Shown here: piece after piece, positions 14,862 through 32,804 of the stretch | Numbering within the stretch: position 1 is the first letter of the stretch | Layout: every line of letters begins with the position of its first letter | Assembly: GCF_011046535.1 (NCBI RefSeq) | Contig: NZ_CP049257.1 | Span: 3,410,001 to 3,474,000 of the forward strand | DNA length: 64,000 nucleotides | Reading direction: 5' to 3' | Source of the DNA: Nocardioides anomalus | Lineage (GTDB): Bacteria; Actinomycetota; Actinomycetes; Propionibacteriales; Nocardioidaceae | Translations under genes and position numbers: made by a program | Notes under the pieces: generated by a model | The model's input: only the letters and a program-made list of their open reading frames with translations | What the model was told of the DNA's origin: nothing | Databases searched by the model: none

Positions 14862-15863
14862 CTAGCCGCGGCCCGCGGCCTTGAGGTCGCGGCGCAGCTC
14901 CTTGGGGAGCGCGAAGATCAGGCTCTCCTCGGCGCTGTGCACCGCGCGGGCGTCGGGGTAGCCGCGCTCGCTGAGGTAGGCCAGGACCTCCTCGACCAGC
15001 GACTCCGGCACGGAGGCGCCCGAGGTCACCGAGACGGTGCGCACCCCGTCGAGCCAGGCCTCGTCGATCTCGGAGGCGTCGTCCACGCGGTACGACGCGC
15101 GCGCGCCGGCCTCGAGGGCCACCTCGACCAGGCGCACGGAGTTCGAGGAGTTGCCGGAGCCGACCACGATGAGCAGGTCGCAGTCCTGGGCGATCTCCTT
15201 GACCGCGAGCTGGCGGTTCTGGGTGGCGTAGCAGATGTCGTCGCTGGGGGGGTCGAGCAGCTCGGGGAACCGCTGCCGGATGGCGGCGACGGTCTCCAGC
15301 GTCTCGTCGACCGACAGGGTCGTCTGGGAGAGCCAGGCGACCTTGCTCGGGTCGCGGACCACGATCGCGTCCACGTCGCCGGGGCCCTCGACCAGCTGGA
15401 TGTGCTCGGGCGCCTCACCGGCGGTGCCCTCGACCTCCTCGTGGCCGGCGTGGCCGATGAGCAGGATGTCGTAGTCGTCGCCCGCGAACCGCTTGGCCTC
15501 GTGGTGGACCTTGGTCACCAGCGGGCAGGTGGCGTCGATGGTCTTGAGGTCGCGCTCGAGGGCCTCGGCGTGCACCGCGGGCGAGACGCCGTGGGCGGAG
15601 AACACCACGGTCCGGCCCTCGGGGACCTCGCTCAGCTCCTCGACGAAGACCGCGCCGCGGGCCTCGAGGTCGGCGACGACGTGCTTGTTGTGGACGATCT
15701 GCTTGCGGACGTACACGGGGGCGCCGTAGAGGTCCAGCGCCTTCTCCACGGTCACCACCGCGCGGTCCACGCCGGCGCAGTAGCCGCGGGGCGCCGCCAG
15801 CAGCACGGCGCGCTCGGCCTCGTCGGGGGCCAGCACGCGGGGGGTGCCGAGGTCGGTGCTCAC
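14862..15863 (-). CDS. ispH: 4-hydroxy-3-methylbut-2-enyl diphosphate reductase
   Basis: The 333-residue enzyme has the three iron-sulfur cysteines of IspH: Cys29 in [11 protein letters not shown], Cys113 in DATCPLVTK and Cys211 in [10 protein letters not shown]. It also has the substrate-binding [25 protein letters not shown] and TSGASVPE motifs. It makes IPP and DMAPP in the last step of the MEP pathway in the cytoplasm. The GTG start is 47 bases from the divergent xseA start. In mycobacteria the same ispH/xseA head-to-head order is kept. Confidence 0.96.
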
Positions 15864-15910
15864 GCCTCCCAGCGTACGGGCGTCGGTGTGCTGCTCTAAA
15901 GTCGGCGAGC

Positions 15911-17149
15911 GTGGCTCTGGAGACCTCGGCGCAGTCCCCCGCGCCGGTCCGTCAGATCGCCAACCTGATCAGCCAGTACGTCGACCGCCTGGGCCCGGTC
16001 TGGGTCGAGGGCCAGATCGCCCAGATCAACCGCCGGCCCGGCCTGCAGACGGTGTTCATGGTGCTGCGCGACGCGGTGGCCGACATCTCGGTGCCGCTGA
16101 CCGTGCCCCGCGACCGGGTGGACTCGCTGGCCACCCCGCTGGTCGAGGGGGCCAGCGTGGTCGTGCAGGCCAAGCCGTCGTACTACGCCAACCGCGGCTC
16201 GTTCTCCCTGGCCGTCCGCGAGATCCGGATGGTCGGCCTCGGCGAGCTCCTGGCCCGGCTCGAGCGGCGCCGGCAGCTGCTGGCCGCCGAGGGGCTGTTC
16301 GCCCGTGAGCTCAAGCGCTCGCTGCCGTTCCTGCCCCACCGCGTCGGGCTGGTCACCGCCCCGCAGTCCGCGGCCGAGCGCGACGTGCTGGAGAACGCCC
16401 GCCGCCGCTGGCCCAACGTGGCCTTCGAGACCTGCTACGCCACCGTCCAGGGCCCCCGCGCGGCCGCGGAGGTGATGGCCGCGCTCGACAAGCTGGAGCG
16501 GAACCCCGACGTGGACGTCGTCGTGGTCGCCCGCGGCGGCGGCTCGGTGGAGGACCTGCTGCCGTTCTCCGACGAGGCCCTCGTCCGCGCCGTGCACCGG
16601 ATGCGCACCCCGGTCGTCTCCGCGATCGGCCACGAGCAGGACCAGCCGCTGCTCGACCTGGTCGCCGACGTCCGCGCCTCCACCCCCACCGACGCCGCCA
16701 AGCTGGTCGTCCCCGACGTGGCCGAGGAGCTGCGCCTGGTCGACGCGGCCCGCCGGCGGCTGCGCCACACCCTGTCCGACTGGCTGCACCGCGAGCAGGC
16801 CGGCCTCGACGCCCTGCGCTCGCGTCCGGTCCTCGGCGACCCGCGCGGCATGCTCGACGAGCGCGCCGCCGAGCTCGAGGCCCTGCGCGACCGGGCCCGC
16901 CGCACGCTCGTCCACCGCCTCGACCGCGCCGCCGACGACATCGCCCACCACCGCGCCCGAGCCCGGGCGCTCTCGCCGCTGGCCACGCTGGAGCGGGGGT
17001 ACGCCGTCCTCCAGGACGCCGACGGCCACGTCGTGACCTCGGTGGCCGGCGTGGCCGCCGGCGCCGACGTGAGCGTCCGGGTCGCCGACGGCCGGGTCCA
17101 CGCCACCACCACGAGCACCGAGCGCCTGGAGGACCACGCCGATGGCTGA
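15911..17149 (+). CDS. xseA: Exodeoxyribonuclease VII large subunit
   Basis: The 412-residue protein begins with the OB-fold domain ([17 protein letters not shown] through [13 protein letters not shown]) and continues into the catalytic domain. That domain includes [41 protein letters not shown] and [22 protein letters not shown] long coiled coil (about 260-350) and the C-terminal LERGYAVL module complete it. With XseB it degrades single-stranded DNA to oligonucleotides. It overlaps xseB by eight bases. Confidence 0.96.
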
Positions 17150-17366
17150 GAACAAGGAGCCCGAGCAGGAGCTCTCCTACGAGGCCGCCCGCGAGGAGCT
17201 GGTCGAGACCGTGCGCCGCCTCGAGGCCGGCGGCACCACCCTGGAGGAGTCGTTGGCCCTCTGGGAGCGGGGCGAGCAGCTGGCCACGATCTGCCAGCAG
17301 TGGCTCGACGGGGTCCGCCAGCGCCTCGACGAGACCCTCGAGGCCGACGCGGACGGCGAGGGCTAG
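17142..17366 (+). CDS. xseB: Exodeoxyribonuclease VII small subunit
   Basis: This 74-residue helical protein shows the XseB pattern [20 protein letters not shown] followed by [15 protein letters not shown] and a C-terminal helix. It starts inside the end of xseA (ATG 17142), so the two subunits are translationally coupled. Several XseB copies coat the coiled coil of XseA. The stop overlaps the convergent hypothetical gene by four bases. Confidence 0.94.
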
Positions 17367-18094
17367 AGCGGCAGCAGTCCCTCAGTCAGCCGGCGGCGCA
17401 GCTCCCACGGGGGCTGGGCGTCACCGTGGCCGAGGAAGCCGCCGCCGGCGAAGACCGCGTTGAGGTGGTCGACGAACGGCGTGGCCACCTCACCCACGAA
17501 GAGCGCGTCGACGCTGCCGTCCGGCAGCCGGAAGCCGTACGCCGGCCCGCCGCTCACGTTCGCCTTGTGCAGCGCGTCGGGAGCGACGGGCAGCACGAAC
17601 ACCTCGCCGTCGCTCCCCTCGGCCTGCGCCTCGGACTCGCCGGCGAAGAACTCGCGCATCGACGCCCCGGGCCACCGCAGCCCCTCCAGCTCGACCACCA
17701 GCGGATCGGCGGCCGCGGCGTCCGGCCAGGTGGGGTGGGTCCCCACGAACCAGACGTCGCCGACCAGCCGCAACCAGGACGCGACGGTCAGCGGGACCGG
17801 GCCGAAGCGCTCCTCGAGCCACCCGAGCAGGGCCGGCGCCTCCTCCGAGGCCGGGCGGAAGGGCTCGACGGGCTCCCGCTCGTCGTCGTTGGTGTGGAAG
17901 CGGTAGCCCTCGGAGCGCAGCCGCGCGACCACCGTCTCGACGTTGGACCGGGCCCGACGGGCCATCTCGTCGCAGACCGCCGCCGCGACGGCCTGCTCGG
18001 TCTCCTCGAGACGCGCCCCGCACTGCCGCAGCTCGTGCCAGACGCGGTCGCGGTCCCCGGCGCGGTAGCGCTCCAGCCAGTCGGGTGCCGCCAC
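17363..18094 (-). CDS. Hypothetical cytoplasmic protein
   Basis: Starting at GTG 18094 gives 243 residues without signal peptide or membrane segments. The N-terminal third is helical (RYRAGDRDRVWHELRQCG and following). It includes a conserved-looking ARLRSEGYRFHTNDDE. The middle resembles a SMI1/KNR4-type alpha/beta fold (FGPVPLTVASWLRLVGDVWF; DPLVVELEGLRW). The C-terminus is Gly-rich and ends in HLNAVFAGGGFLGH. Similarity to SUKH proteins is only an impression, and no toxin gene lies next to it. Confidence 0.6.
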   Translation of the reverse strand: MAAPDWLERYRAGDRDRVWHELRQCGARLEETEQAVAAAVCDEMARRARSNVETVVARLRSEGYRFHTNDDEREPVEPFRPASEEAPALLGWLEERFGPVPLTVASWLRLVGDVWFVGTHPTWPDAAAADPLVVELEGLRWPGASMREFFAGESEAQAEGSDGEVFVLPVAPDALHKANVSGGPAYGFRLPDGSVDALFVGEVATPFVDHLNAVFAGGGFLGHGDAQPPWELRRRLTEGLLPL

Positions 18095-18125
18095 GGTGGC
18101 AGCCTGCCGCACGCGTCGGCCGGGC

Positions 18126-19679
18126 TCAGCCCCGCCGCAGCCCGCGCTCCCCGTCGGCCAGCGTGAACGTCGCCGCGGTCGAGACCGGAGCGCCCGGGCG
18201 ACGCACGAACGGCAGGGTCCGGAAGTCCGCGCGCAGCCGGTCGGGCGCGAGCCGCAGCACGACGTACCCACGCCGGCTGTCGACCCAGCGCAGGTGCGGG
18301 TTCTCGGCCAGCTGGACGTCGGTCAGGGCGGTGCGGACCGAGCCGTCACCGCCGCTGCTCACCGAGGTGGTGACCAGCTCGGCGGCGACGGTGGTGGCGT
18401 CGAGGAGCAGGTCGTTGGCGTAGTGGCGGTGCACGTCGCCGGTGAGCACGACGGGGTTCCGGACGTCGGTCAGCGACCGCAGCAGCCGGCGGCGGGCCGC
18501 GGGGTAGCCGTCCCAGGCGTCCATGGCGAACTCCTCCAGCGGCCCCGGGAAGCTGTCCTTGGGCGCCACGAACACCTGCTGGGCCAGCAGGTCCCGCCGG
18601 GCGGGCGAGGCGCGCAGCCCGTCGCCCAGCCACCGCTCCTGCGCGCCGCCCAGCATCGTGCGGTCGGGGGCGAGCCGTGCGGTGCAGCCGATGACGCGGG
18701 TGTCGCCGCAGGCCTGGTCGTAGCGGTACTGGCGGGTGTCGAGCAGGTGCACGGTGGCCAGGTCGCCCCAGGCGAGCCGGCGGAAGACCGGCATCGTGGC
18801 ACCGCGCGGCAGCGAGGAGCGGCGCAGGGGCATGTGCTCGTAGTACGCGCGGAAGGCCGCGGCCCGGCGCCGCAGGAAGTGCGGCTGTGGGGTCTGGGGC
18901 GTGGCGCCGGCCCAGTTGGCGTCGACCTCGTGGTCGTCGGGGACCACCGCCCACGGCGCGGCCGCGTGGGCGGCCTGGAGGTCGGGGTCGGTCTTGTACT
19001 GCGCGTGCCGTTGCCGGTACGCCGCGAGCGTGCGGGTCTCCCGGCCGAGGTGACCGCGCACGTGGCCGGCGCCGGTGGTCGCGTCGGTTCCCGGGTCCTC
19101 GGGACTCTCGTAGAGGTAGTCGCCGAGGTGGAGCACCAGGTCGGGCTCCTCGGCGGCCAGGTGCCGGTAGGCAGTGAAGAAGCCCTCCTCCCAGTTCGCA
19201 CAGGACACGACCCCGACGGTGGCCGACGCCGGGAGCGAGCCGCCGGCCGGCGCGGTCCGGGTGCGGCCCACCGGCGAGAGGTGCCCCTCGGCGCGGAACC
19301 GGTAGAAGTACGGCCGGTCCGGGCGCAGCCCGGCCACCTCGACGTGCACGCTGTGTGCCCAGGCCGGCTCCGCGACGGCGTACCCGCCGCGCAGCCCGGT
19401 CCGGAACGCCTCGTCCTCGGCCACCTGCCACTGCACGACGACCGGACGTCGCGGCATCGCGCCGAGGCCGTCGTCGGCCAGCGGCTCGGGCGCCAGCCGG
19501 GTCCACAGCACGACGCTGGTCGGCCAGGGGTCGCCGGAGGCCACGCCGAGCGCGAACGGGTCGCGCAGGACCGCGGGCCGCAGCGCGGGCACGCCCGGCA
19601 GGAAGGGCACGGCCGGCACGACGGGTGCGGCCAGGCCCGCGAGCAGGTGCCGGCGGGACAGGGACGGGTCGAGGACCAC
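18126..19679 (-). CDS. phoD: Alkaline phosphatase D (PhoD family), Tat-exported
   Basis: The 517-residue protein starts with a Tat signal (SRRHLLAGLAAP), as expected for PhoD, and an N-terminal Fn3-like domain (FALGVASGDPWPTSVVLWTRL). The metallophosphoesterase core contains the Fe/Ca ligand motifs VVSCANWEEGFF, LHLGDYLYE, VPDDHEVDANW and VLTGDVHRHYAND. PhoD releases phosphate from mono- and diesters outside the cell and is normally induced by phosphate starvation. No Pho box was identified. Start is GTG 19679. Confidence 0.93.
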   Translation of the reverse strand: MVLDPSLSRRHLLAGLAAPVVPAVPFLPGVPALRPAVLRDPFALGVASGDPWPTSVVLWTRLAPEPLADDGLGAMPRRPVVVQWQVAEDEAFRTGLRGGYAVAEPAWAHSVHVEVAGLRPDRPYFYRFRAEGHLSPVGRTRTAPAGGSLPASATVGVVSCANWEEGFFTAYRHLAAEEPDLVLHLGDYLYESPEDPGTDATTGAGHVRGHLGRETRTLAAYRQRHAQYKTDPDLQAAHAAAPWAVVPDDHEVDANWAGATPQTPQPHFLRRRAAAFRAYYEHMPLRRSSLPRGATMPVFRRLAWGDLATVHLLDTRQYRYDQACGDTRVIGCTARLAPDRTMLGGAQERWLGDGLRASPARRDLLAQQVFVAPKDSFPGPLEEFAMDAWDGYPAARRRLLRSLTDVRNPVVLTGDVHRHYANDLLLDATTVAAELVTTSVSSGGDGSVRTALTDVQLAENPHLRWVDSRRGYVVLRLAPDRLRADFRTLPFVRRPGAPVSTAATFTLADGERGLRRG

Positions 19680-19755
19680 GTTCCGCGACGCTCACGCAGT
19701 CACGCGACCGGACAGGGCCCCGGACCCGACGCGGGCGCGAACGGCGGGCGAAGGC

Positions 19756-20343
19756 TCAGCAGCCCTGCGTGGAGCCGGTGCTGAGCCGGCCGACGAGCTC
19801 CTCCTGCTGGGCCACCGAGGCCGAGCCGTAGACGAGGAGGGTCTGGCCGTCCAGCGGCCCCGCGAGGGTGGTCGAGAAGGCGTGGTCACCGCCGTCGTCG
19901 GACCAGGTCTGCCAGGTGGAGACGCCGAGGGAGTTCTCCGGCGAGGCGTCCTCGCCCTCGTCGGCGCTCTTGTCGACGTAGGTCTCGAGCAGGTCGTCGA
20001 CGTCGGACTGCTCCTGCCGGACCCCGACGAACTCGTCGTCGTCGGTCACGAAGCCGATCCCCCAGGTGGGCGGGTCGCCGCGCTCGAAGTCGGTGCTCGT
20101 GGCCCGCCAGCCGTCGGGGAGCCCGCACGGGAAGACGACGGTGACGTCGGCCCCCTGGAGCTCGGAGACCTGGGCGAGGTAGTCGACGTCCTGCTTGACG
20201 TCGGGCTGGTCGCGGGTGACGGCCCGGAACGCGACGTACCCGGCGATGAAGACCACCGTGACGACCATCGCGCCGATGAGACCACCGAAGCTGCGGGTGT
20301 AGCGGCTGGGCCGCTCGCGTCCCTGCTCCGGCGTGTCGCTCAC
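19756..20343 (-). CDS. DUF4245 membrane-anchored protein
   Basis: From GTG 20343 the product is 195 residues: a short cytoplasmic N-terminus, one membrane helix (GLIGAMVVTVVFIAGYVAF, residues about 20-40) and an extracytoplasmic domain with a pair of Cys. DUF4245 proteins are found in almost all actinobacteria, usually beside glpX (M. tuberculosis Rv1100/Rv1099c). Here the glpX neighbour has been pushed 5 kb away by the TIR-STAND and permease genes. Function unknown. Confidence 0.85.
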   Translation of the reverse strand: MSDTPEQGRERPSRYTRSFGGLIGAMVVTVVFIAGYVAFRAVTRDQPDVKQDVDYLAQVSELQGADVTVVFPCGLPDGWRATSTDFERGDPPTWGIGFVTDDDEFVGVRQEQSDVDDLLETYVDKSADEGEDASPENSLGVSTWQTWSDDGGDHAFSTTLAGPLDGQTLLVYGSASVAQQEELVGRLSTGSTQGC

Positions 20344-20440
20344 CTCCCCATCTTCCCAGGCGGCCCGAGAGTGGTGATGATGGCCCGGCCGCGCGACTCG
20401 GGCGCGCTGGTCGACGACGAGCCGTCCGGCGGAAGGGGAA

Positions 20441-23400
20441 GTGGTGGCGCAGCTCTTCGTGTCGCACTCCTCGGCCGACAACGCGCTCGCCGCGGAGGTC
20501 AAGGACGCACTGGCGGACCTGGGCTACGGCTCGGTGTTCCTGGACTTCGACCCGACCGGCGGGCTGGTGCCCGGACAGGCCTGGCGCGACCAGCTCTTCA
20601 CCAACCTCGACGCCTGCGACGCGGTCGTCTTCATCACCACGCCCCAGTCCGTGGCCAGCCAGTGGTGCCACTCCGAGCTGGCGCTCACGCGCTGGCTGCG
20701 CAAGCCCGTGCTGGCCCTGCTGGTCGACGGCGCCGACCCGCACCCGCTCATCGCCGACCTCCAGGGCCTCAAGATCAGCGCCGGCCAGATCGACCGCGAC
20801 CGGGTCCGCGCGGCGCTCGGCGCCCTGGGCCTGGAGCAGGAGGCGCGCTGGGACGCCGGCCGCTCGCCGTTCCCCGGACTGCGCGCGTTCGACGAGTCCT
20901 ACGCCGCGGTGTTCTTCGGGCGCGACCGGCAGATCGACCAGCTCCGCCAGCTCGTCGACCCGCCGAGCCGCAGCCGCGAGGGCGCGATCATCCCGGTCCT
21001 CGGCCCGTCCGGCAGCGGGAAGTCCTCGCTCGTGCGCGCCGGCCTCGTGCCCGCGCTCCGGGTCTCCGACGACTGGGTGATCACCGACCCGTGGACGCCG
21101 TCGGACGTGCCGCTGGCCGAGATGTCGCTGGCCCTGGCCCACGCGGCCAAGCTGCGCCAGGCCGAGCTCGACGCCGACCGGTGCGCCGAGCTGCTGCGCA
21201 CGCCGGGCGGGATGGCGGAGTACGTCCGGGCCATCCGCGCGTCCGGCCAGGCCTCGGCCGAGACCAAGGTGCTGGTCGTGGTGGACCAGGCCGAGGAGCT
21301 GGTCACCATGACCGGGGAGGCCGAGCGGACGGCGTTCCTGCAGGCGCTGACCACCGCCTGCACCGCCCCCTCCCCGCTGCGCGTGGTCATGACGGCCCGC
21401 ACCGACATGTGGGACCGGGTCGCCGCCGAGACCGGCAAGTCCGCGCTGCAGGTCGCCCCGACGGTGCTGCACGTGCCGCCGCTGTCGCGCAGCGACCTGG
21501 CCGAGGTCATCAGCCAGCCCGCCCGCCGCTCGCACCTCACGCTCGAGGACGGGCTGGTGCAGCGCCTGGTCGACGACACCGGCGGTGGTGAGGCACTCCC
21601 CCTGTTGGCCTTCACGCTGGCCCGGCTGGCCGCCGAGTCCCAGGACGGCCGGCTCACGCACGCGGCGTACGACGCGATCGGCGGGGTGCGCGGCGCCATC
21701 GCCTCCCGCGCCGGCGAGGTGGTCACCGCCGGTCGCACCGAGCAGGACGTCGCCGAGGCCGTCCTGCACCTGGTCAACCTCACCGACGCGACCCCGCACA
21801 AGCGGCTGGCCCGGGCCGCGGACGTCCCGCCGCGGCACCGCGAGATCCTCGACGACCTGGTCGACGCCCGGCTCGTGGTCATCAACGAGGTCAACGACCA
21901 GCAGGTCTACGCGCCGGCGCACGAGTCGCTGTTCTCGGCGTGGCCGCCCCTGGCCGCGCTCATCGAGAAGCGCCGCGACGACCTCGTCCTCCGCGCGCGC
22001 CTCGAGCGCCGGGCCGGCGACTGGCGCGAGGGTGGCGCCACCCAGTCCGGGCTGCTCGCCGGGCTCGAGCTGGCCCAGGCCCGCGCCTGGCGCTCGCGCA
22101 ACCCCGACATGGGCACCGCCGACGTCACGGCGTACGTCGACGCCTCGGCGGCCCGCCAGCGCCGCGGCCGCCTGGTGCGCGCCGGCGTGGGCCTGGTCGT
22201 CGCCGCCCTCGCCGTCACGCTGGTCGTGGTGCTGCTCGTCAACGCTCGCGCCGACCGCCGACGCGCCGAGCAGGCGCGGGTGGGCGAGCTGGCCGCCATC
22301 GCGCAGCGCGAGCTGACCCACGACCCCGCGGCCGCGGCGGCGGCGCTGCTGCGCGGGCTCGAGATCAACGGCTCGGACCGCGAGCTGCGCACCGCGGCCC
22401 GGACCCTCCTGCGCTCCCCGGCCCGTGACGTCTACCGCTCGCCCGAGCAGGACTCCTTCTACAACATCGGCGTCGGCGGGTCGGTGGGCGCCGTGACCAC
22501 CGGCGCCGGCCGTGCCCTGGTCTGGGACACCGCCACCGAGCGGGTGCTCGACCTCCCGGAGTCGGGCGCTCTGGCCGTGCGCCCCGACGGCCGGGTGCTG
22601 GTCTCGGTGGACAGCAAGGCCGGGATCCACGCCTACGACCTGGCCGCCGACCTCCCGGCCGGCGGCACGCCGACCCCGCTCTCGACGTTCAGCCCGGACG
22701 ACGGCTCGGTGCCGGTGCTGGCGTTCTCCCACGACGGCTCGCTGCTCGCGGTGGCCCGCACGAGCTGGGTCACCCTCTGGGACCTGCGCGACCCGGCCGC
22801 GCCCCGCGAGCTGACGTCCTGGCACAGCCCGAAGGGCGACCCGACCGCGCTGGCCGTGCTCGACGACGGCCGGGTGCTCTCCGCCTCGGTCTCCTCCCAG
22901 CTGGTCGTGTGGAACGCCCTCGGCGACAACAGCACCGCCGAGCTGGTGCCCGGCCGCAGCGACTCCGGCGTGCAGCACCTGACCGCGGACGCCGCGGGCG
23001 AGCACGTGCTCATCGACTTCCCGACCTTCGAGGACGTCGCGCTGGTCGACGTGGCCACCGGTACGCCGGTCGGCAGCTTCCGCGCCAGCCTCCCCGACGC
23101 GCCGCCCACCGGCCTGCCGCCGGTGAGCTGGACCTCCAGCCTGTCCCCCGACGGCCACACCGTGGCGACGTTCGACCTGGCCGGCCGCGGCTACGTCTTC
23201 GGCGCCGAGGACGGCGCCTACCTCGGCGGGCTGACCGGCGGGCACACGTCGCTGGTCTCCGAGTCGCTGTTCGACGACGACGGCATGCTGCTCTCGGCCA
23301 GCGTGGACGGCTCCCTGCGCCTGTGGGACCCGCGCTCCTCCGAGCTGGAGCTGTCCGACGACCCCCGCGCCGACCTGTGCCGGGTCTTCGGCGACCGCAT

Positions 23401-24073
23401 CGACGACGACAGCTGGCGCCTGGCCTTCGAGGACGACGACCGCGAGGCGCTCTGCCCGGGCCACGAGCGCGCGGCACCGCCCCCGCTCAAGGTCTCGAGC
23501 TCCGCCGACATCGGCGCCCTGCCCGAGGTGGCCGCGCCCGGCACCGTGGTCTTCACCGACGGCTTCGACGGCGCCACGCCGTTCGGCACCGGCCCGCAGC
23601 CGGTGTCCACCGGCACGGTGACCGCGTCGGTCAAGGGCGGCCGCTACCGGATGGAGTCCGCCGGCCTCGGCCCCGACTACACCGCGTGGCGGACCGCGCC
23701 CGTCTCGGGCGCCGGGGCGACCTGGTCGGTGCGGGTCACGCCGGGCCGGACCCGCGGCGCCTGCGGGCTGTACGCCGGCGACGGGGCGACCCAGCTCGTC
23801 GTCACCCTCGACCGCGACAGCGGCGAGGGCCGCGCCGAGTGGTTCAGCGGCTCCGGCAGCACCCACGTGCTGCCGTTCACCGCGCCACCCGGGAGCGCCG
23901 GACCGCTCGCGCTGGTGGATGATCAGGGCGTGATCGCGGTCTTGCTGGGCGGCCGCCGGGTGGCCACGACCGTGGACCCGGTCCTCCGCCCGCCGACGAC
24001 GATCGGCATCGCCACCCGCGGCGACACCGCCAGCTGCGACGTCGACGACATCACGCTCACCACGGCCCCTTGA
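20441..24073 (+). CDS. TIR-STAND NTPase with membrane span, WD40 repeats and concanavalin-like C-terminus
   Basis: This 1210-residue protein opens with a TIR domain (residues 3-125: LFVSHSSAD, FLDFDP, and QWCHSEL with putative catalytic Glu79). A STAND-type NTPase follows, with FPGLRAF, FFGRDRQ, Walker A GPSGSGKSS at 188-196, Walker B VLVVVDQAEEL at 277-287 and AHESLFSAWPPL near 493. One membrane span lies at about 581-600. Arg-rich helices, then WD40-like blades (VWD, LWD, VWN, LWD at roughly 690-965) and a beta-sandwich with several Cys (1000-1205) complete it. Nucleotide-driven activation of a TIR NADase by a ligand-sensing propeller, as in defence STAND proteins, is the obvious model. GTG 20444 has better spacing from the AGGGG site than GTG 20441. 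Topology beyond the span is unproven. Confidence 0.9.
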   Translation: MVAQLFVSHSSADNALAAEVKDALADLGYGSVFLDFDPTGGLVPGQAWRDQLFTNLDACDAVVFITTPQSVASQWCHSELALTRWLRKPVLALLVDGADPHPLIADLQGLKISAGQIDRDRVRAALGALGLEQEARWDAGRSPFPGLRAFDESYAAVFFGRDRQIDQLRQLVDPPSRSREGAIIPVLGPSGSGKSSLVRAGLVPALRVSDDWVITDPWTPSDVPLAEMSLALAHAAKLRQAELDADRCAELLRTPGGMAEYVRAIRASGQASAETKVLVVVDQAEELVTMTGEAERTAFLQALTTACTAPSPLRVVMTARTDMWDRVAAETGKSALQVAPTVLHVPPLSRSDLAEVISQPARRSHLTLEDGLVQRLVDDTGGGEALPLLAFTLARLAAESQDGRLTHAAYDAIGGVRGAIASRAGEVVTAGRTEQDVAEAVLHLVNLTDATPHKRLARAADVPPRHREILDDLVDARLVVINEVNDQQVYAPAHESLFSAWPPLAALIEKRRDDLVLRARLERRAGDWREGGATQSGLLAGLELAQARAWRSRNPDMGTADVTAYVDASAARQRRGRLVRAGVGLVVAALAVTLVVVLLVNARADRRRAEQARVGELAAIAQRELTHDPAAAAAALLRGLEINGSDRELRTAARTLLRSPARDVYRSPEQDSFYNIGVGGSVGAVTTGAGRALVWDTATERVLDLPESGALAVRPDGRVLVSVDSKAGIHAYDLAADLPAGGTPTPLSTFSPDDGSVPVLAFSHDGSLLAVARTSWVTLWDLRDPAAPRELTSWHSPKGDPTALAVLDDGRVLSASVSSQLVVWNALGDNSTAELVPGRSDSGVQHLTADAAGEHVLIDFPTFEDVALVDVATGTPVGSFRASLPDAPPTGLPPVSWTSSLSPDGHTVATFDLAGRGYVFGAEDGAYLGGLTGGHTSLVSESLFDDDGMLLSASVDGSLRLWDPRSSELELSDDPRADLCRVFGDRIDDDSWRLAFEDDDREALCPGHERAAPPPLKVSSSADIGALPEVAAPGTVVFTDGFDGATPFGTGPQPVSTGTVTASVKGGRYRMESAGLGPDYTAWRTAPVSGAGATWSVRVTPGRTRGACGLYAGDGATQLVVTLDRDSGEGRAEWFSGSGSTHVLPFTAPPGSAGPLALVDDQGVIAVLLGGRRVATTVDPVLRPPTTIGIATRGDTASCDVDDITLTTAP

Positions 24074-25315
24074 CGGCCGTCCTCGCCGACGCCGTCGCGC
24101 TGGTCGCCCTCGCGGGGCTCCTCGTCGCGGCCACGCTGCACCTGCCCTGGCGCCGGGAGGCCGGCGTCGCCGTCCTGGCCACCGTGGTCGTGCTGGCCAC
24201 CGGCCTGGTCGACCGCGACGCCCTCACCGACACCCTCGGCGAGCTGCTGCCCGTCGTGGTCTTCCTCGTCACGATCCTGGTCGTCTCCGACGTCTGCGCC
24301 CGCGCCGGGCTGTTCCGCGCCGCCGCCCGGATCGTCGGCGGGGCCAGCGGGGGGCCGCCCGGACCGGCTGCTGCTCGGCGTCTTCGTGCTGGCCGCCCTG
24401 GTGACCGTGGTCCTCAGCCTGGACGCCACCGTCGTGCTGCTCACCCCGATCGTGGTCGGCGCGGCGGCCACGCTCGGCACCTCCGACCGGCCCGGCGCCT
24501 TCGCCTGCCTGCGGATGGCCAACTCCGCCTCGCTCCTGCTCCCGGTCTCCAACCTCACCAACCTGCTGGCCCTGCCCCACCTGGACCTGGACTTCCTGGG
24601 CTTCGCGGCCCGGATGGGGCCGGTCTGGGTGGTCGTGCTCCTCGTGGAGTACGTCCTGCTCCGCCTGCTGTTCCGCCGCGACCTGGCCGCCGCCCCGCGC
24701 GACGGGCACGACCTCACCGGCCCGCCGGTGCCGCTGGTCCCGGTGCTCGTGCTGGTCCTCATGCTCGCGGCGTTCACGGTGCTCTCACGCTGGGACGTCG
24801 CGCCCGCGTGGGCGTCGTCCGCCGCCGCCCTCGTGCTGGTCGTCTGGGCCGGCGCACGCCGCGAGGTCACCCCGCGCCAGGTCGTCGCCGCGGCGAACCT
24901 GTCCTTCGCCCTGCTCGTCCTGGCCCTCGGCGTGACCGTGGCCGCCGTGGCCTCCGGGTTCCTCGGCGACGTCGTGGCGGACCTGGTCCCCTCGAGCACC
25001 TCGCTGGCCGCGCTGCTGGCCATCGCGGTCCTGGCCACGGTCCTGGCCGCCCTGCTCACCAACCTGTCGGCCACGATCCTGCTCGTGCCCCTGGTCGCCC
25101 CGCTCGGCACGACCGCCGTCCTGGCCGCGCTGCTCGGGCTCAACATCGGCTCCGGCCTCACCTGGACCGGCTCGCTGGCCAACCTGCTGTGGCGCCGCAC
25201 GCTCACCGGCGCCGGCCGCAGCGTCGGCACCGCGGCGTTCCACCGCGTCTCGCTGGTCATCACCCCGGTGTCGCTCTGCCTCGGGGTGGTCACCCTGTGG
25301 GCGGTGTCCGGCTAG
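24070..25315 (+). pseudogene. ArsB/NhaD (ion transporter superfamily) permease, frameshifted
   Basis: A TTG start at 24070 overlaps the stop of the TIR-STAND gene (TTGA). The first 95 residues give three hydrophobic helices ending in RIVGGASGG. The frame then breaks in a six-G run (24349-24354), and the correct sequence resumes one base over as RPDRLLLGVFVLAALVTVVL. Total length after removing one G is 414 residues with about eleven membrane helices and the LSLDATVVLLTP and NLTNLLALP motifs of ArsB/NhaD permeases. Substrate (arsenite, Na+/H+ or dicarboxylate) cannot be told. The break is probably a sequencing error. Confidence 0.8.
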
Positions 25316-25325
25316 GGTCTGGCTC

Positions 25326-26345
25326 ATGGAGCCCGAGCGCCTGGTCCCCTCCCCCCAAGCCCCGGACCGCAACCTGGCCCTGGAGCTCGTCCGGGTCACC
25401 GAGGCGGCCGCGATGGCCGCAGCGCGGTGGGTCGGCCGCGGCGACAAGAACGGCGCCGACGCAGTCGCGGTCAACGCGATGCGGGTGATGATCTCGACCA
25501 TCCAGATGGACGGCGTCGTGGTCATCGGCGAGGGCGAGAAGGACAACGCGCCCATGCTCTACAACGGCGAGCGGGTCGGTGACGGCACCGGGCCGGAGTG
25601 CGACGTGGCCGTCGACCCCATCGACGGGACCACGCTGACGGCCAAGGGCATGGCCAACGCCGTGGCCGTGCTGGCCGTGGCGCCGCGCGGCTCGATGTAC
25701 GACCCGTCCGCGGTCTTCTACATGGAGAAGCTCGTCACCGGGCCCGAGGCGGCCGACGTGGTCGACATCCGCAACCCCGTGGCCGAGAACATCCGCCAGG
25801 TGGCCAAGGCCAAGGGCACCGAGCCCGAGGACGTCACCGTCGTGCTGCTGGACCGGCCCCGCCACGAGAGGCTGGCGGAGGAGATCCGGGCCACCGGCGC
25901 GCGGATCCGCTTCATCGTCGACGGAGACGTGGCCGGCGCGATCGCGGCCGCGCGGCCCGGCAGCGGCGTGGACCTGCTGCTCGGCATCGGCGGCACGCCC
26001 GAGGGCATCATCGCGGCCTGCGCGGTCAAGTGCATGGGCGGCGTCATCCAGGGCCGACTGTGGCCGCAGGACGACGACGAGCGGCAGCGGGCGCTGGACG
26101 CCGGCCACGACCTCAGCCCGGAGGCGGTGCTCACCACCGACCAGCTGGTCACCGGCGACGACTGCTTCTTCGTGGCCACCGGCATCACCGACGGCGACCT
26201 GATGAGCGGGGTGCGCTACCGCCCCGGCGGGTGCACCACCGACTCGCTGGTCATGCGCTCGCGCAGCGGGACGATCCGCTCGATCCGCAGCGAGCACCAG
26301 CTGTCGAAGCTACGCGCTTTCGCTGCTGTCGACTTCGAGCACTGA
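25326..26345 (+). CDS. glpX: Class II fructose-1,6-bisphosphatase
   Basis: The 339-residue enzyme carries GlpX signatures: [20 protein letters not shown], the metal-binding [27 protein letters not shown] and [18 protein letters not shown]. Class II FBPase is the sole gluconeogenic FBPase in most actinobacteria. It converts fructose-1,6-bisphosphate to fructose-6-phosphate in the cytoplasm. It starts at ATG 25326. Its end overlaps the convergent hydrolase gene by 36 bases. Confidence 0.96.
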
Positions 26346-27200
26346 GTCGAGCGACCGCAGCCCACGGCGTCCGGACGCCGGGCGCTGCAGCGCCGCGGTG
26401 ACCACGTCGACGACGTGCGGGTCGAGCGCCATCCCCACGTGGGAGGTGGTGACCTCGACGGCGTGGGCGGTCGGGTCGACGCAGGCCCGCCAGTCGACGA
26501 TGCCGTCGCGCCGGGAGTAGACCGCGGTGAAGGCGACGTCGCCGGCCAGCGGCTCGCGGCTCTCCTCGAAGCTCTGCCGCGCGCAGCGACCGCGCACGCA
26601 CTCCTCGGCCATCAGCCCGGGCACGCCGGCCCGGCTCAGCCGGACCAGCAGGTCGACGCTCGAGGTGAGCAGCACGTGGTGGGCGCCGGGCGCGAGCATC
26701 GGGCTGCCCATGGTGACGATGCCGCTGATCAGGTCCGGGCGGCGTACGGCCAGACCGCGGGCCAGCATCCCGCCCAGGCTGTGCCCGACGATGCGGACCC
26801 GGCTGTCGCGCTTGATCGCGATCGACTCGATCCGCGACTCCAGCGCGTCGGCCGCCTCGAGCGTGCAGCCGACGTTGGCGCTGATGTGGGAGGAGTAGGT
26901 GCGGAAGCCTCGCCCGCGAAGCGTCCGGCTCATCGCGTGCAGGCTCAGGTCGCCGGCCATGAAGCCCGGGACCAGGACGACGGGCTCGTCGGTGACGACC
27001 GCGCCCCGGGTGGCGTACGGCGCACGCCAGCGGCGGCGGCGCTCGTCCAGCGAGCTGGCGGCGTACCGGCCGGCCTCGAGGACCACGCTGCCCTCGCGGA
27101 GCACGTCGCGGACCCGCGGGCGGGCGAAGCCGTCGGGCAGCAGGAACGAGCCCAGGCTCGGGTTCTCCCGCCTGGAGCTCGTCGACGCTGACTGGCCCAC
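26310..27200 (-). CDS. Alpha/beta hydrolase (lipase-like)
   Basis: The start at GTG 27200 gives 296 residues and leaves room for a promoter in front of the divergent gene; an earlier GTG at 27266 is possible. The fold is read from [15 protein letters not shown] (oxyanion strand), the nucleophile elbow [13 protein letters not shown], and the C-terminal ...[14 protein letters not shown] (Asp) and [10 protein letters not shown] (His). The sequence is closest to triacylglycerol-lipase-like hydrolases with a PGFMAGD entry. There is no signal peptide, so it acts in the cytoplasm or at the membrane. Substrate unknown. Confidence 0.8.
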
Positions 27201-27267
27201 GTCCCTGAGGTTACGGACCGGTGACCCGTGAACGGCGGACTTCCGCCCCTTTGGTTGACTCTTCACC

Positions 27268-28173
27268 GTGTCGGTCCCCGTCTCTGAGGAGCTCTTCGCC
27301 CCCGTCGGACGCGAGGTGGAGCTCGCCTATCAGACGTTCGGTACCCCCGACGGGGATCCACTCCTCCTCGTCATGGGCCTCGGCGGCCCGATGACCTGGT
27401 GGGACCCCGAGCTGTGCCGGATGCTGGCCGAGCGCGGGTTCTACGTCATCCGCTACGACAACCGCGACGTCGGCCGCTCCAGTCGCGCCCAGGGCCGGGT
27501 CACCCGCGCCACCCTCGTGCGCGCCTTCACCGGCCGTCGCGTGCGGGCGCCGTACTCCCTCCTCGACCTGGCCGAGGACGCCGTCGGGTTGCTCGACCAC
27601 CTCGGCGTCGAGTCCGCGCACGTGTGCGGCGTGTCGATGGGCGGGATGATCGCCCAGACCCTGGCCATCGCCCACCCCGACCGGGTCCGCTCGCTGGTCA
27701 GCATCATGTCGACCACCGGCAAGCGCACCGTCGGCTGGCAGCACCCCTCGCTCCTGCCCAGCCTGCTCGGCTCGCGGGCCGGCAAGGAGGGCTACGTCGA
27801 GATGAGCGTGCGCACCTGGAAGCTGATCGGCTCCCCGGCGTACCCCACGACGGAGGAGGCCACCCGCAAGCGCGCGGGCGAGACCTGGGACCGCGGCGTC
27901 ACGGCCAGCGGCACGATGCGCCAGATGGTCGCCATCCTGACCCAGCCCAACCGCGCCGAGAAGCTGCACGCCGTGCGCGTCCCCGCCCTGGTCGTGCACG
28001 GCACCGCCGACAAGATGGTCCACGTCTCCGGCGGCCGGGCCACCGCCGCCGCCATCCCGGGCGCCGAGCTGCTGCTCGTCGACGGCATGGGCCACGACCT
28101 GCCCGAGGCGCTGTTCGAGACCTTCGCCGACGGCATCCGTCGCACGGCGGACCGCGCGAGCGCCCGGCGCTAG
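27268..28173 (+). CDS. Alpha/beta hydrolase
   Basis: The 301-residue protein is a standard alpha/beta hydrolase. It has PLLLVMGLGGPMTWW, YDNRDVGRSS, the nucleophile Ser123 in CGVSMGGMIAQ, Asp in VVHGTADKMV and His in DGMGHDLP. This is the subfamily often annotated as aclacinomycin methylesterase RdmC-like hydrolases. No secretion signal. The GTG start at 27268 is divergent from the other hydrolase gene. Its TAG stop overlaps the end of the convergent FAD oxidoreductase gene. Confidence 0.88.
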   Translation: MSVPVSEELFAPVGREVELAYQTFGTPDGDPLLLVMGLGGPMTWWDPELCRMLAERGFYVIRYDNRDVGRSSRAQGRVTRATLVRAFTGRRVRAPYSLLDLAEDAVGLLDHLGVESAHVCGVSMGGMIAQTLAIAHPDRVRSLVSIMSTTGKRTVGWQHPSLLPSLLGSRAGKEGYVEMSVRTWKLIGSPAYPTTEEATRKRAGETWDRGVTASGTMRQMVAILTQPNRAEKLHAVRVPALVVHGTADKMVHVSGGRATAAAIPGAELLLVDGMGHDLPEALFETFADGIRRTADRASARR

Positions 28174-29534
28174 TGCACGCGCACCCCTTGGCGGTCCAGC
28201 TCGCGCTGGACGGCGCCGAGGTCCACCTCGGTCAGCTCGCGGCCCTGGTGGAGTGAGAGCGCGGCGGCCACGCCGGCGCCCTGACCCTGCACCGCGCAGC
28301 ACGACATGTTGCGCGTCGAGGCGTGGGCGATCCGGTCGCCGCCGCTCGGCCGCCCCGGCACGAGCAGGTTGCGCAGGCCGCGCGGCACCATGCTGCGGAA
28401 CGGCACCTCGTAGTAGCGCCCGGTCGTGGGCAGCACCAGCACGCCGTACCCGTCGATGAACTCGGGGTAGATCCCCACCGAGTCCTCGAACCGCGCCTGC
28501 CCGCGCACGTCGGCCTCGGTCAGGTCGTAGGCCGCCACGATCTTGCGCGAGTCGCGGATGCCGATGGTCATGCCGAAGTTGCGCAGCCGGGCGTGCTCAC
28601 AGCCGCGGGTGTAGCGGCGCAGCGCCGCGATGGCGTGCACCGCCTGCCGCCGGCCCTCGATCTCCCCGCGGGTGAGGTCGTCGGGGTCGGTGCCGTCGAC
28701 GCCGGGGAGGTGGACGATGTTCAGGTACGTCAGCTCGCCACTGTCGTGGACCGCGCCCCACGTGCCGCCGAGGGTGGTCAGCCCGGCCGGGACGACGCCG
28801 TCGCGGACCGCGGCGGCGAACGGCTTGCGGAGGTACGGCGAGAACAGGGCGTCCTCCTTGCCGTCGGTCTCCACCTCCCAGTCCGCCTCGCTCCAGTCGG
28901 CGTAGGTCTGCGGGTCCGCGCGCACCCCGGCCAGGAACTCCGCCTTGTCCACCCCGGCCAGGTGGAACATCACCGACGCCGCCAGCATCTCCTCGCGCGG
29001 CGTCGTCCTCGTCGGGGCGCCGGCCCGGAAGGCCAGGTCCGCGTCGCCCGTCGCGTCCACCACCCGCCGGGCCAGGATCGCCTCCCGGCCGGCCTTGGAC
29101 TCGGTCAGCACCCCGATCACCCGGTCGCCGTCCAGCAGGGGCGCCACCACCTGCCGGTGCAGCAGCGGCCGCACCCCGGCCTCCTCGACCAGGACGTCGG
29201 CCACGACCTTGAACGCCTCGGCGTCGATCTCCATCGACAGCGACTGGCTCTCCGGGGTCGCCGCCCCCATCGCCGCCGCCCGGTCCTCGAGCTCGCGCCC
29301 AATGCCTCCGGCCTCGACCGTGGCCTCGTGGCGGTACCACGCCATCCCCTCGACCCCGACCGCCGTGATGTTGCCGCCGAAGCACCCGAACCGCTCGACC
29401 AGCGCCGTCTCCGCGCCCGCCCGCGCCGACGCCAGCGCCGCAGACAGCCCCGCCGGTCCCGACCCCACCACCAGCACGTCGGTCTCGAGCACGACGTCCA
29501 CGTCCCGCGCCGGCTCGCGGATGGTCTTCGGCAC
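28170..29534 (-). CDS. FAD-dependent oxidoreductase (FAD_oxidored family)
   Basis: The 454-residue protein has an N-terminal Rossmann motif LVVGSGPAGLSAALASARAG (G24, G26, G29), followed by ERFGCFGGN. The body reads VVDATGDADLAFRAGAP, RNFGMTIGIRDSRKIVA and, near the end, NLLVPGRPSGGDRIAHAS, all typical of the PF12831 group. Members oxidise or reduce varied small molecules, and the substrate is unknown here. There is no signal peptide. A pair of cysteines (NMSCCAVQGQG) lies close to the flavin end. Confidence 0.88.
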   Translation of the reverse strand: MPKTIREPARDVDVVLETDVLVVGSGPAGLSAALASARAGAETALVERFGCFGGNITAVGVEGMAWYRHEATVEAGGIGRELEDRAAAMGAATPESQSLSMEIDAEAFKVVADVLVEEAGVRPLLHRQVVAPLLDGDRVIGVLTESKAGREAILARRVVDATGDADLAFRAGAPTRTTPREEMLAASVMFHLAGVDKAEFLAGVRADPQTYADWSEADWEVETDGKEDALFSPYLRKPFAAAVRDGVVPAGLTTLGGTWGAVHDSGELTYLNIVHLPGVDGTDPDDLTRGEIEGRRQAVHAIAALRRYTRGCEHARLRNFGMTIGIRDSRKIVAAYDLTEADVRGQARFEDSVGIYPEFIDGYGVLVLPTTGRYYEVPFRSMVPRGLRNLLVPGRPSGGDRIAHASTRNMSCCAVQGQGAGVAAALSLHQGRELTEVDLGAVQRELDRQGVRVH

Positions 29535-29628
29535 GGCGCCACGCTATGACAGGCGGGTGGTCCTCAGGTGCCGCCGTCCGGCACCTGCGACCGATGGATC
29601 CGGCGCCCGCCGCCGCCACCGTGGAGCC

Positions 29629-30187
29629 GTGACCCTCCGCCTCGTCCTGCCCGCGGCCGTGACCGCCGCCCTCGCCCTGCTCGTCGCCGGCTGCGGCGCC
29701 GCCGGCGACCAGACCGACCGCACCGTCCCCGCGACCCACCAGGCCGCCGCCCGCACGCTGCCCGCCACGCCACCCGACGCCCCTCCCCCGGACGGCGACC
29801 CCGCCTCGGTCAGCCACCTCGACCCCGACCTCCTCGCCGCCGTCGAGGCCGCCACCCGCGACGCCCGGCGCGACGGCGTCGAGCTCCGCATCACCAGCGG
29901 CTGGCGCAGCCGCGCCCACCAGCAGCGCCTCTTCGACGAGGCCGTCGCGAAGTACGGCAGCGAGGACGAGGCCCGCCGCTACGTCTCCACCCCCCGACAC
30001 CTCCCGCCACGTCACCGGCGACGCCGTCGACATCGGCCCCACCGACGCCGACGACTGGCTCGGCCGGCACGGCGCGGCGTACGGCCTGTGCCAGGTGTTC
30101 GCCAACGAGATCTGGCACTTCGAGCTGGCCACCACCCCCGGCGGCAGCTGCCCCGACCAGCTGCCGGACAGCAGCTACCGCCAGTGA
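29629..30187 (+). pseudogene. VanY/M15-type D,D-carboxypeptidase lipoprotein, frameshifted
   Basis: From GTG 29629 the protein has a lipobox (LVAGC), a linker and the M15 core ELRITSGWRSRAHQQRLFDE. In the six-C run 29990-29995 the frame breaks. Reading on with one C fewer gives SRHVTGDAVDIGP (zinc His and Asp) and NEIWHFEL (catalytic Glu and zinc His), ending at 30187 after 185 residues. Restored, it is a normal extracytoplasmic LAS metallopeptidase that trims peptidoglycan stem peptides. The one-base error is probably technical, since every catalytic residue survives. Confidence 0.85.
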
Positions 30188-30191
30188 CGGC

Positions 30192-30920
30192 TCAGGCCTT
30201 GAAGAAGGCCAGCTGCTCGTGGACCCGGGGGTAGAACTCCTCGGCGGGGGTGCCGAGCTGGACCTTGAGCCCCCGCGTCTCCTCGTCGGCCAGGACCTCG
30301 AGCGCGCCGTTCACCACCCCGTCGTAGGCCTGGTCGACCACCGAGGCCGCGGTGACCTTGGCGACGTCCCAGCGCTGCGACATCGGGGTGTCGACCATGC
30401 CCACCAGCAAGCTGACCACGTGCGTGCCCTGGCCCTCCAGCGCCAGGCGCAGCCCATTGCTGGCCGACCACAGGGCCGCCTTCGACGCACCGTAGACCGT
30501 GGGGACGCTGACCCAGGCCGCGGACGAGATCACGTTCAGCATCGTGCCGCCGCCGTGGGAGGCCAGGACCGGGGCGAAGGCGTTGGCGACCTGCAGGGTG
30601 CCGAAGAAGTTGGTCTCGAACACGCGGCGGGCGTCCTCGACCGAGCCGGTGATGCTGTCGCCCTCCGGGGCGATGGCGGCGTTGTTGACCCGCAGGTCGA
30701 CGTCGCCCGCTCGGGCCGCTGCGGCCGCGATGCTCTCGGGGCCGGTCAGGTCGAGGTGCAGGGGCTCCACGAGCGGGCTCTCCCAGCTCCGCGGCGTGCG
30801 CGCGGCGGCGTACACCTTCGCCGCGCCGCGGGCGAGTGCGCCCGCCACGAACTCCTGCCCGAGGCCGCCGTTGGCCCCGGTGACGAGGACGGTGCGTCCG
30901 GCCAGTGGTGTGGTGCTCAT
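30192..30920 (-). CDS. Short-chain dehydrogenase/reductase
   Basis: The 242-residue classical SDR has the cofactor loop TGANGGLG (residues 14-21), NNAAIA (position of NNAG), the catalytic triad Ser near 132 with Tyr143 and Lys147 in VYGASKAAL, and a VGMVDTPM strand. The basic residues after the Gly loop (AARTPRSW) favour NADP(H). It is divergent from a TetR gene across two matching operators, so that regulator very probably represses it. Substrate unknown. Confidence 0.93.
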   Translation of the reverse strand: MSTTPLAGRTVLVTGANGGLGQEFVAGALARGAAKVYAAARTPRSWESPLVEPLHLDLTGPESIAAAAARAGDVDLRVNNAAIAPEGDSITGSVEDARRVFETNFFGTLQVANAFAPVLASHGGGTMLNVISSAAWVSVPTVYGASKAALWSASNGLRLALEGQGTHVVSLLVGMVDTPMSQRWDVAKVTAASVVDQAYDGVVNGALEVLADEETRGLKVQLGTPAEEFYPRVHEQLAFFKA

Positions 30921-30937
30921 CTAGACTCCGTTCTGAA

Positions 30938-30983
30938 GTGGGGACCATCCCCACAACGACCGACTATATGGGGACACTCCCCA
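30938..30983. promoter_or_regulatory. Two identical-type inverted repeats between SDR and TetR genes
   Basis: Two copies of TGGGGA-N3-TCCCCA occur, at 30939-30953 (extended by one pair to 30938-30954) and at 30969-30983. Their centres are 30 bp apart, about three helical turns. They fill the divergent promoter region of the SDR (start 30920) and TetR (start 31005) genes and are the natural operators of that TetR protein. A TATAT stretch between them is the only AT-rich part of the spacer. Confidence 0.75.
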
Positions 30984-31004
30984 CTTGCCGCTGGAGGGTG
31001 CTCG

Positions 31005-31628
31005 GTGGTTGGGAAGCCACGAGAACGCGCCGGAGCCGTTCGGCCGCTCCGCGCCGACGCCCAGCGCAACCGGGACGCGGTGCTGACCGCGGCACGGGAG
31101 GTCTTCGCCGAGGACAGCGTGCTCGCCCCGCTCGACACCATCGCGGTGCGGGCCGGGGTCGGCAACGCGACGCTCTACCGCCACTTCCCGACCCGCGAGG
31201 ACCTGCTCTCCGCGGTGATGGCGAGCAGCATCACCGACGCCGTGGCCCTCGGCGAGGAACTGGCCCGCACCGAGGACCCGAGCGCGGCGCTGCGTGAGTG
31301 GCTGGTCCACCTGGCGTGGCTGCTGCGCATCTGGCACGACCTGCCCTACTGCCTCGCCGACGCGCACGTGGACCCGAGCTCGCCCGTCGCCCCGTCCACG
31401 GCGTGCCTCGTCGCCCAGACCCGGCTGCTGCTCGACGGCGCGCGGACCGTCGGTGCGGCTCGGCCGGACGCCGCCGCGGACGAGGTCTTCGAGCTGGTGA
31501 CCGCCCTGTCCTGGGCCATCGACCGCTTCGGCGACGACGAGGGCGCCGCCCGCCGGCGGGTGCTCCTCGCCACCGCGGGCCTGACCGGCGGCGGCTGGCC
31601 GGAGGACGACGACGGCCCCACCGCGTGA
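31005..31628 (+). CDS. TetR/AcrR family transcriptional regulator
   Basis: GTG 31005 sits six bases after a GGAGGG site and gives 207 residues. The HTH domain ([17 protein letters not shown] ... [16 protein letters not shown]) is canonical. The helical ligand domain is of the TetR_C type with a [16 protein letters not shown] end. It is divergent from the SDR gene and very likely autoregulates and represses the SDR through the paired TGGGGA/TCCCCA sites. Confidence 0.92.
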
Positions 31629-32739: not shown

Positions 32740-32757
32740 GCTGAACCATTCCCTTCA

Positions 32758-32804
32758 CCGGCAGGTACGTGCCGGACGATCCGTAGTGAAGTGACGCGCG
32801 TCAC
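32758..32804 (-). promoter_or_regulatory. Palindrome and hairpin upstream of the second sugar ATPase
   Basis: A perfect 14-bp palindrome GTGACGCGCGTCAC (32791-32804) lies 50-65 bases upstream of the ATPase start at 32739. A second inverted repeat CCGGCA-N6-TGCCGG (32758-32775) lies between. The first is a good operator candidate. The second could be a leader hairpin. Their presence suggests that this ATPase has its own promoter rather than relying on the importer operon. Confidence 0.5.

Follow-up and report, generated by a model that had tools for sequence, protein, structure and literature searches.

A TIR-nSTAND1 protein of Nocardioides anomalus with a predicted external WD40 sensor: a candidate surface receptor whose family carries two classes of ectodomain

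The genome of the soil actinomycete Nocardioides anomalus (assembly GCF_011046535.1) contains, in the 64,000-nucleotide stretch analyzed here (contig NZ_CP049257.1, positions 3,410,001 to 3,474,000; hereafter the window), a gene whose product combines a TIR domain, an nSTAND1 NTPase, a single membrane span, a WD40 propeller and a concanavalin A (ConA)-like domain in one polypeptide (Table 1). A preliminary description of the window had proposed a protein of this composition, ending in a Cys-containing beta-sandwich, and profiles, motifs and structural models now confirm it. Besides the assigned start codon, a second GTG at 20444 yields the MAQLFV start that is found in many homologues. The gene is flanked by a divergent DUF4245 gene on one side and by a permease gene followed by glpX on the other.

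Table 1. Features of the receptor gene and its immediate neighbors (positions are those of the window)
Feature	Position	Strand	Basis or remark
DUF4245 gene, divergent neighbor	19756..20346	-	Pfam
TIR-nSTAND1-TM-WD40-ConA-like protein, 1210 amino acids	20441..24073	+	GTG start; open reading frame and Pfam
TIR_2 domain, residues 6-115	20456..20785	+	Pfam, 1e-15
Putative catalytic Glu79 in SQWCHSE	20675..20677	+	48/48 family members
nSTAND1 NTPase, residues 143-534	20867..22042	+	Pfam, 7e-90
Walker A GPSGSGKS, residues 188-195	21002..21025	+	48/48 relatives
Walker B LVVVDQAEE, residues 278-286	21272..21298	+	D282, Q283 and E286 invariant in 52-row alignment A1
Approximate edge of between-class identity fall, residue ~550; putative 5' edge of exchanged ectodomain	22085..22093	+	identity profile
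Membrane span, residues 582-600	22184..22240	+	hydrophobicity; only one
Three-helix stalk, residues 601-657	22241..22411	+	AlphaFold 2 model
Seven-bladed WD40 propeller, residues 658-968	22412..23344	+	predicted structure
C980...C1005 pair beyond propeller, predicted disulfide	23378..23455	+	48/48 relatives
ConA-like beta-sandwich, residues 1035-1208	23543..24064	+	predicted structure; with C1108/C1199
ArsB/CitMHS-family permease, two frames (24070 onward, then 24386-25315)	24070..25315	+	separate gene, frameshifted
glpX, conserved right neighbor	25326..26345	+	profile match

The N-terminal part of the protein has the sequence features of a signaling enzyme coupled to a regulatory NTPase. The TIR_2 profile scores 58.7 bits against a cut-off of 28, and the domain also matches the PADLOC model of ThsB (5e-7) and the NCBIfam model of ThcB4 (4e-8, under the cut-off). 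S-x-W-C-x-x-E is the motif with the Glu expected of TIR NADases, and its E79, C76 and S73 are invariant across the conservation alignment A1, so that both profile and motif are those of a TIR NADase, with the activity itself putative. The nSTAND1 profile reaches 302.8 bits (cut-off 27.1), and with both Walker motifs present the domain belongs to the STAND NTPases. Beyond the span, WD40-type repeats are detected by Pfam from approximately residue 709 to 968, and the predicted models of the propeller and sandwich folds are both confident. Structure comparison of the model identifies the C-terminal ConA-like fold as one of lectin/glucanase type, and the domain is probably sugar-binding. It also resembles domains of mycobacteriophage tail fibers and receptor-binding proteins (8zdp, 9n6a), a likeness that is probably due to the common fold.

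Homologues were drawn from the 120 matches listed, out of 2800 at E<=1e-20 among 8000 candidates scored. Span statistics were obtained from 111 of the 120, which possess a Walker A motif and at least 700 residues beyond it; the remaining nine either have no Walker A match or are too short. The span occupies the same place in 106 of these 111 full-length homologues, and the earlier view that a membrane span between effector and sensor is unusual was thus mistaken, as this layout is standard for the class. In the 20 residues on either side of the span, Lys and Arg are more numerous before than after it in 74 of 106 homologues, fewer in 4 and tied in 28. Beyond the span, the number of Cys residues is even in 96 of 106 (none in 1, two in 58, four in 37) and odd in 10, compared with even counts before the span in only 50 of 106. 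After thinning by ectodomain identity at 40, 50 and 70%, even counts beyond the span persist in 13 of 15, 25 of 29 and 54 of 62 sequences, respectively, while the corresponding numbers before the span are 4, 13 and 25. On the basis of this positive-inside charge and Cys pairing, the TIR and STAND domains are predicted to be cytoplasmic and the propeller external. One span, a positive-inside asymmetry and paired Cys residues are the sequence features of a transmembrane receptor with its C-terminus outside, which gives new support to the original suggestion of sensing at or outside the membrane.

A second property of the family emerges when its two halves are compared. For the family trees, 48 of the 120 listed homologues were used; the 72 excluded were nine fragments or frameshifted copies (P0051, P0054, P0056-P0060, P0063 and P0064), P0055, which was omitted for no special reason, and 62 rows with 26-43% identity (P0065-P0126). 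Length classes were set before any tree was built and comprise 26 long forms (1204-1212 amino acids, with the sandwich), 12 short forms (996-1028 amino acids, without it in any member) and 10 more distant forms, with C1108/C1199 retained in all 36 long and distant forms. P0043 and P0044 represent a third ectodomain type and were kept apart in the pairwise comparison of halves, which leaves 10 short forms. In the engine, defined here as TIR plus nSTAND1, median identity between long and short forms is 88% (TIR) and 87% (nSTAND1), as within either class (88-89%). In the propeller, by contrast, the median is 39% between classes, 68% among long forms and 61% among short forms. For the whole C-terminal half, the ranges do not overlap: 59.7-92.1% among long forms (n=325), 59.1-79.7% among short forms (n=45) and 37.3-45.8% between them (n=260). 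The change is abrupt, with between-class identity falling from 0.88 at residues 540-549 to 0.40 at residues 550-559, where a lasting drop begins approximately 30 residues ahead of the span; residues 530-539 already show a dip (0.74 between classes vs 0.89 among long forms).

Two explanations for these classes were considered, namely recombination of the ectodomain and fast divergence along one branch. The latter, which is unlikely and already disfavored, would be in keeping with propellers that diverge faster than the engine in every comparison made. However, it would not readily account for the relationship between the two halves. Across pairs of long and short forms, N-terminal identity ranges from 82.9 to 94.0%, and C-terminal identity stays flat over that entire range, whereas within classes ectodomain identity rises along with engine identity. 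At an engine identity of 92-94%, the median ectodomain identity is 85.1% within classes (n=11, minimum 78.7) but 39.9% between them (n=8, maximum 42.5). Moreover, the nearest engine relative is a long form for 5 of the 10 short forms, while the nearest ectodomain relative is a short form for all 10. The trees, built on columns 2-534 for the engine and 601-1008 for the ectodomain, likewise conflict. In the engine tree, the long label requires five changes, of which the starred branches force at least two, and a branch with a Shimodaira-Hasegawa-like approximate likelihood ratio test (SH-aLRT) value of 97 unites 14 long forms with all 10 short ones. In the ectodomain tree, long forms (100) and the 10 short forms (99) each form one clade. 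By the approximately unbiased (AU) test, the N-terminal data reject the long forms as a single clade (p 0.034), and the C-terminal data reject the 24-row engine grouping (p 0.0009). Given the conflicting trees and the discrete ectodomain classes on a shared engine, the two parts most likely have different histories.

The chromosomal context points in the same direction for the two homologues in which it can be compared. The window genome, with a long form, and Nocardioides halotolerans (G097), with a short form, carry the gene at the same chromosomal place, and their DNA is 84% identical over residues 1-534, 57% over the propeller and 79.5% over the larger permease piece. The window genome, a single 5.12-Mb contig, and G097 each contain one match of the protein (in G097 at E<=1e-60); accordingly, the two classes do not represent paralogues in either genome. 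A possible third class of engine-only proteins (P0051, P0056, P0057 and P0059) was dropped, because these sequences run out of frame past residue ~530-590; they retain approximately 680-736 amino acids and have lost the ectodomain, through either assembly errors or real decay.

The outer part also occurs on other N-termini. An ectodomain-only search of the 8000 candidates scored returned 54 proteins, 32 within this family and 22 (P0130-P0151) outside it. According to database names and hydropathy, the N-termini that accompany a related propeller in the latter include a caspase (P0133), helix-turn-helix (HTH) domains (P0142 and P0148) and kinases (P0140 and P0143), and P0147 has a TIR domain with a span as early as residue 207, too close for an nSTAND1 domain to fit ahead of it. 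The Cys patterns of the 22 vary, with P0130, P0137 and P0147 ending in a pair 24-25 residues apart. The 12 short forms are all missing from the 54 matches, probably a consequence of scoring only the 8000 candidates with the most words in common. The outer part resembles a sensor module in wide use, attached to several switches.

The surroundings of the gene were examined through the interval between DUF4245 and glpX. While glpX was found in 53 of 58 genomes, the 20 regions compared were hand-picked (19 of 29 glpX loci in other genomes plus G097) and include genomes chosen for an already known permease or TIR gene. In this sample, the interval contains the TIR gene with the permease in one region (G097), the permease alone in 3, nothing in 2, a 3-kb block in 10 and the permease together with this block in 4; the block matches ModA, ModB and ModC in all 14 cases (L065-L068, L070-L076 and L078-L080). 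The preliminary description had taken DUF4245 and glpX to be normally adjacent, and from this had argued for an inserted module. With an empty interval in 2 of 20 regions and modABC in 14, such adjacency is not borne out, and the argument carries little weight: the interval is a slot with variable content, for the most part metabolic genes (chiefly modABC and/or the permease), and not a defence island. Among the parts of that description, the domains, motifs and span stand, its adjacency argument does not, and its interpretation is supported in part.

The permease itself raises another possibility, in which the protein is a stress or envelope regulator whose TIR domain has a scaffolding and not an NADase function, with a possible link to the overlapping permease. 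In the window, the stop codon of the TIR gene and the opening codon of the permease share bases (TTGA), the permease frame of N. halotolerans comes at the corresponding position (with an uncertain start codon), and the span-propeller layout is also found with HTH and kinase N-termini. However, the invariance of E79, C76 and S73 argues against a mere scaffold, 7 of the 20 regions have the permease but no TIR gene, and in the window the permease is frameshifted while the TIR gene is intact. The shift occurs at a run of six G near 24350 (24340-24390) and may reflect either sequencing error or decay; the N. halotolerans copy is open in one frame. Such a regulatory role is considered decidedly improbable. 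As a separate observation, an msiK cis-regulatory RNA (Rfam RF01747, 58.5 bits) lies at 32743-32802 on the minus strand, and no tRNA gene is present within the window.

The distribution of the protein is patchy. At E<=1e-60, it occurs in 2 of 215 genomes of the genus and 3 of 341 of the family; a sample of 293 genomes from the order gives 3 at E<=1e-50. Its own genome is included in each count. At a loose threshold (E<=0.001), 11 of 58 genomes match, again including its own; the other 10 were not counted as orthologues, as their matches are weak and partial (30-54% identity, best E 2e-25). A plasmid search returned 37 records, none of which covers 80% of the query. The N. anomalus genome has one strong nSTAND1 protein (306 bits), and no further strong ones were found there, the eight others scoring approximately 26 bits or less; a second TIR_2 protein (46.9 bits) is encoded at G000:C1:5063160-5063411. 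Around three distant homologues (G321, G415 and G393; nine open reading frames scanned), the neighbors have nothing in common. Next to a distant TIR-nSTAND1 homologue, a SLATT_3+SLATT_1 protein (L085:11077-11961, minus strand) is encoded convergently at a distance of 20 bp, and it is possible that it acts as a nucleotide-gated effector partner in that lineage.

These data also bear on the view that the protein is an antiphage abortive-infection protein, only incidentally anchored in the membrane, and that its propeller detects phage components on the cytoplasmic side. Its TIR-STAND logic is like that of known antiphage proteins, its distribution is patchy and a SLATT effector gene adjoins one distant homologue. 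On the other hand, positive-inside charge and Cys parity place the propeller outside, the C-terminal fold is of lectin/glucanase type and no defence neighbors were seen in the portion of the window that was scanned. Thoeris is not indicated, since ThcB4 scores 32 bits against a cut-off of 220 and no ThsA or other effector was detected among the neighbors by Pfam. No full-length PADLOC defence model was matched either, the only matches being TIR-range ThsB/SAVED-TIR and short NTPase mad hits. Cytoplasmic antiphage sensing thus appears quite unlikely.

A single-pass membrane TIR-STAND receptor with an exchangeable ectodomain is the reading preferred here, and several observations weigh against it. 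The open reading frames scanned by Pfam at 14862-31628 encode ispH, xseA, PhoD, DUF4245, the permease, glpX, a hydrolase, an FAD oxidoreductase and TetR, with four lacking a match; no defence or mobile genes were seen among them, and a defence role is accordingly not supported by location. Odd Cys counts beyond the span occur in 10 of 106 homologues, and the kinase P0140, with its different N-terminus, has 14 Cys residues beyond its span. On the N-terminal half, the ten short forms as a single clade are not rejected (AU p 0.082), a result that favors fast divergence; on the C-terminal half, long forms plus the ten short forms as one clade are not rejected (p 0.21), and the tree carries a long-branch warning for the distant rows P0045-P0047. 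Both trees were built quickly, and their branch support is limited to SH-aLRT. Between the window and N. halotolerans, the identity of four-fold degenerate sites is 57-68%, whether in the flanking genes, in the engine or in the propeller, with a GC content at third codon positions of ~0.95-1.00; synonymous sites are therefore near saturation, which makes the ratio of nonsynonymous to synonymous substitutions useless and puts the exchange beyond dating or testing at the DNA level. Finally, only two homologues have a known chromosomal place, and most homologues lie on short, probably metagenomic contigs, some of which could be misassembled. For these last two reasons, allelism of the long and short forms at a single locus is to be regarded as a strong lead and not as a conclusion.

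Several known systems share parts of this arrangement. To our knowledge, the known bacterial proteins resembling nucleotide-binding leucine-rich repeat receptors (NLRs) sense inside the cell. The Avs and bNACHT antiphage STAND proteins and the plant TIR-NLRs, all soluble proteins with intracellular sensing, follow the same effector-STAND-sensor logic, whereas the sensor is predicted to be outside here. Apaf-1 (3sfz) is cytosolic, with a CARD instead of TIR and two propellers. PkwA of Thermomonospora curvata, whose WD40 domain has been solved (5yzv), is named a Ser/Thr kinase, unlike this protein, and is not known to have a TIR or STAND domain. Further counterparts are other nSTAND1 proteins with TIR and WD40 domains, which have the same order of TIR, nSTAND1, a span near residues 580-625 and a propeller. 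Among the matches listed, distant members of this class are mostly ~1300 amino acids long with ~33% identity; 6 of the 7 examined have a Cys pair ~25 residues apart near the end, as here, and the ConA-like domain is seen in the nearest families only. TraA, a surface receptor of myxobacteria, is not known as a TIR or STAND protein, and the comparison with it concerns the polymorphism pattern only, not homotypic recognition between cells. As described in PMC6372800, TraA sequences group differently by variable domain and by full sequence, possibly through allele shuffling, a conflict similar to that found here; TraA governs outer membrane exchange and has more than 60 predicted recognition groups, compared with two main classes in the present family. 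The name nSTAND1 comes from PMC8195603, which assigns such NTPases to counter-invader systems, and PMC10907252 reports on multicellular bacteria in which retroelements diversify STAND sensors. In the accessible portions of the literature covered (including PMC7159879, PMC10907252, PMC8195603, PMC5587647, PMC6372800 and PMC3501461, with subscription journals mostly outside), neither a TIR-nSTAND1-span-WD40 receptor with an external propeller nor ectodomain exchange in such receptors is described.

Taken together, the protein is somewhat more probably than otherwise a single-pass, NLR-like membrane receptor that responds to a variable surface cue by setting off NAD (nicotinamide adenine dinucleotide)-based arrest or death. 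In the model, the TIR and nSTAND1 domains would lie in the cytoplasm, and the span would carry the stalk, propeller and ConA-like domain outside. An external cue, possibly a glycan given the ConA-like domain, would bind the ectodomain, and the signal would pass through the stalk and span. By analogy with other STAND proteins, nSTAND1 would then exchange nucleotide and the protein oligomerize. As in other TIR systems, the TIR domains brought together might consume NAD+ or produce a (cyclic) ADP-ribose signal, after which the cell would arrest or die. To judge from sequence comparison, the ectodomain (~550 to the end) may recombine as a unit against the conserved engine, such that each strain would carry either of two highly dissimilar sensors, possibly at a single chromosomal location. 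Two sharply different outer halves on the same inner half suggest recognition of something variable, and a cue that changes from one encounter to the next, for example a surface molecule of phages or non-kin cells, would be in keeping with the two-class pattern. A more specific version is tentative and rather doubtful: that the two diverged ectodomains are interchangeable alleles of a cell-surface NLR at one fixed place, selected for variable non-self such as surface glycans of phages or competitors and wired to NAD-based suicide, with the outer half exchanged by homologous recombination between engine and permease.

The presence of two ectodomain classes on one engine offers a simple handle for asking whether the trigger moves with a swapped ectodomain. 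If the sensor is indeed outside, a TIR-NLR would couple an external cue directly to NAD-based arrest within a single polypeptide, and the members of the large TIR-nSTAND1-TM-WD40 class would then count as surface receptors.

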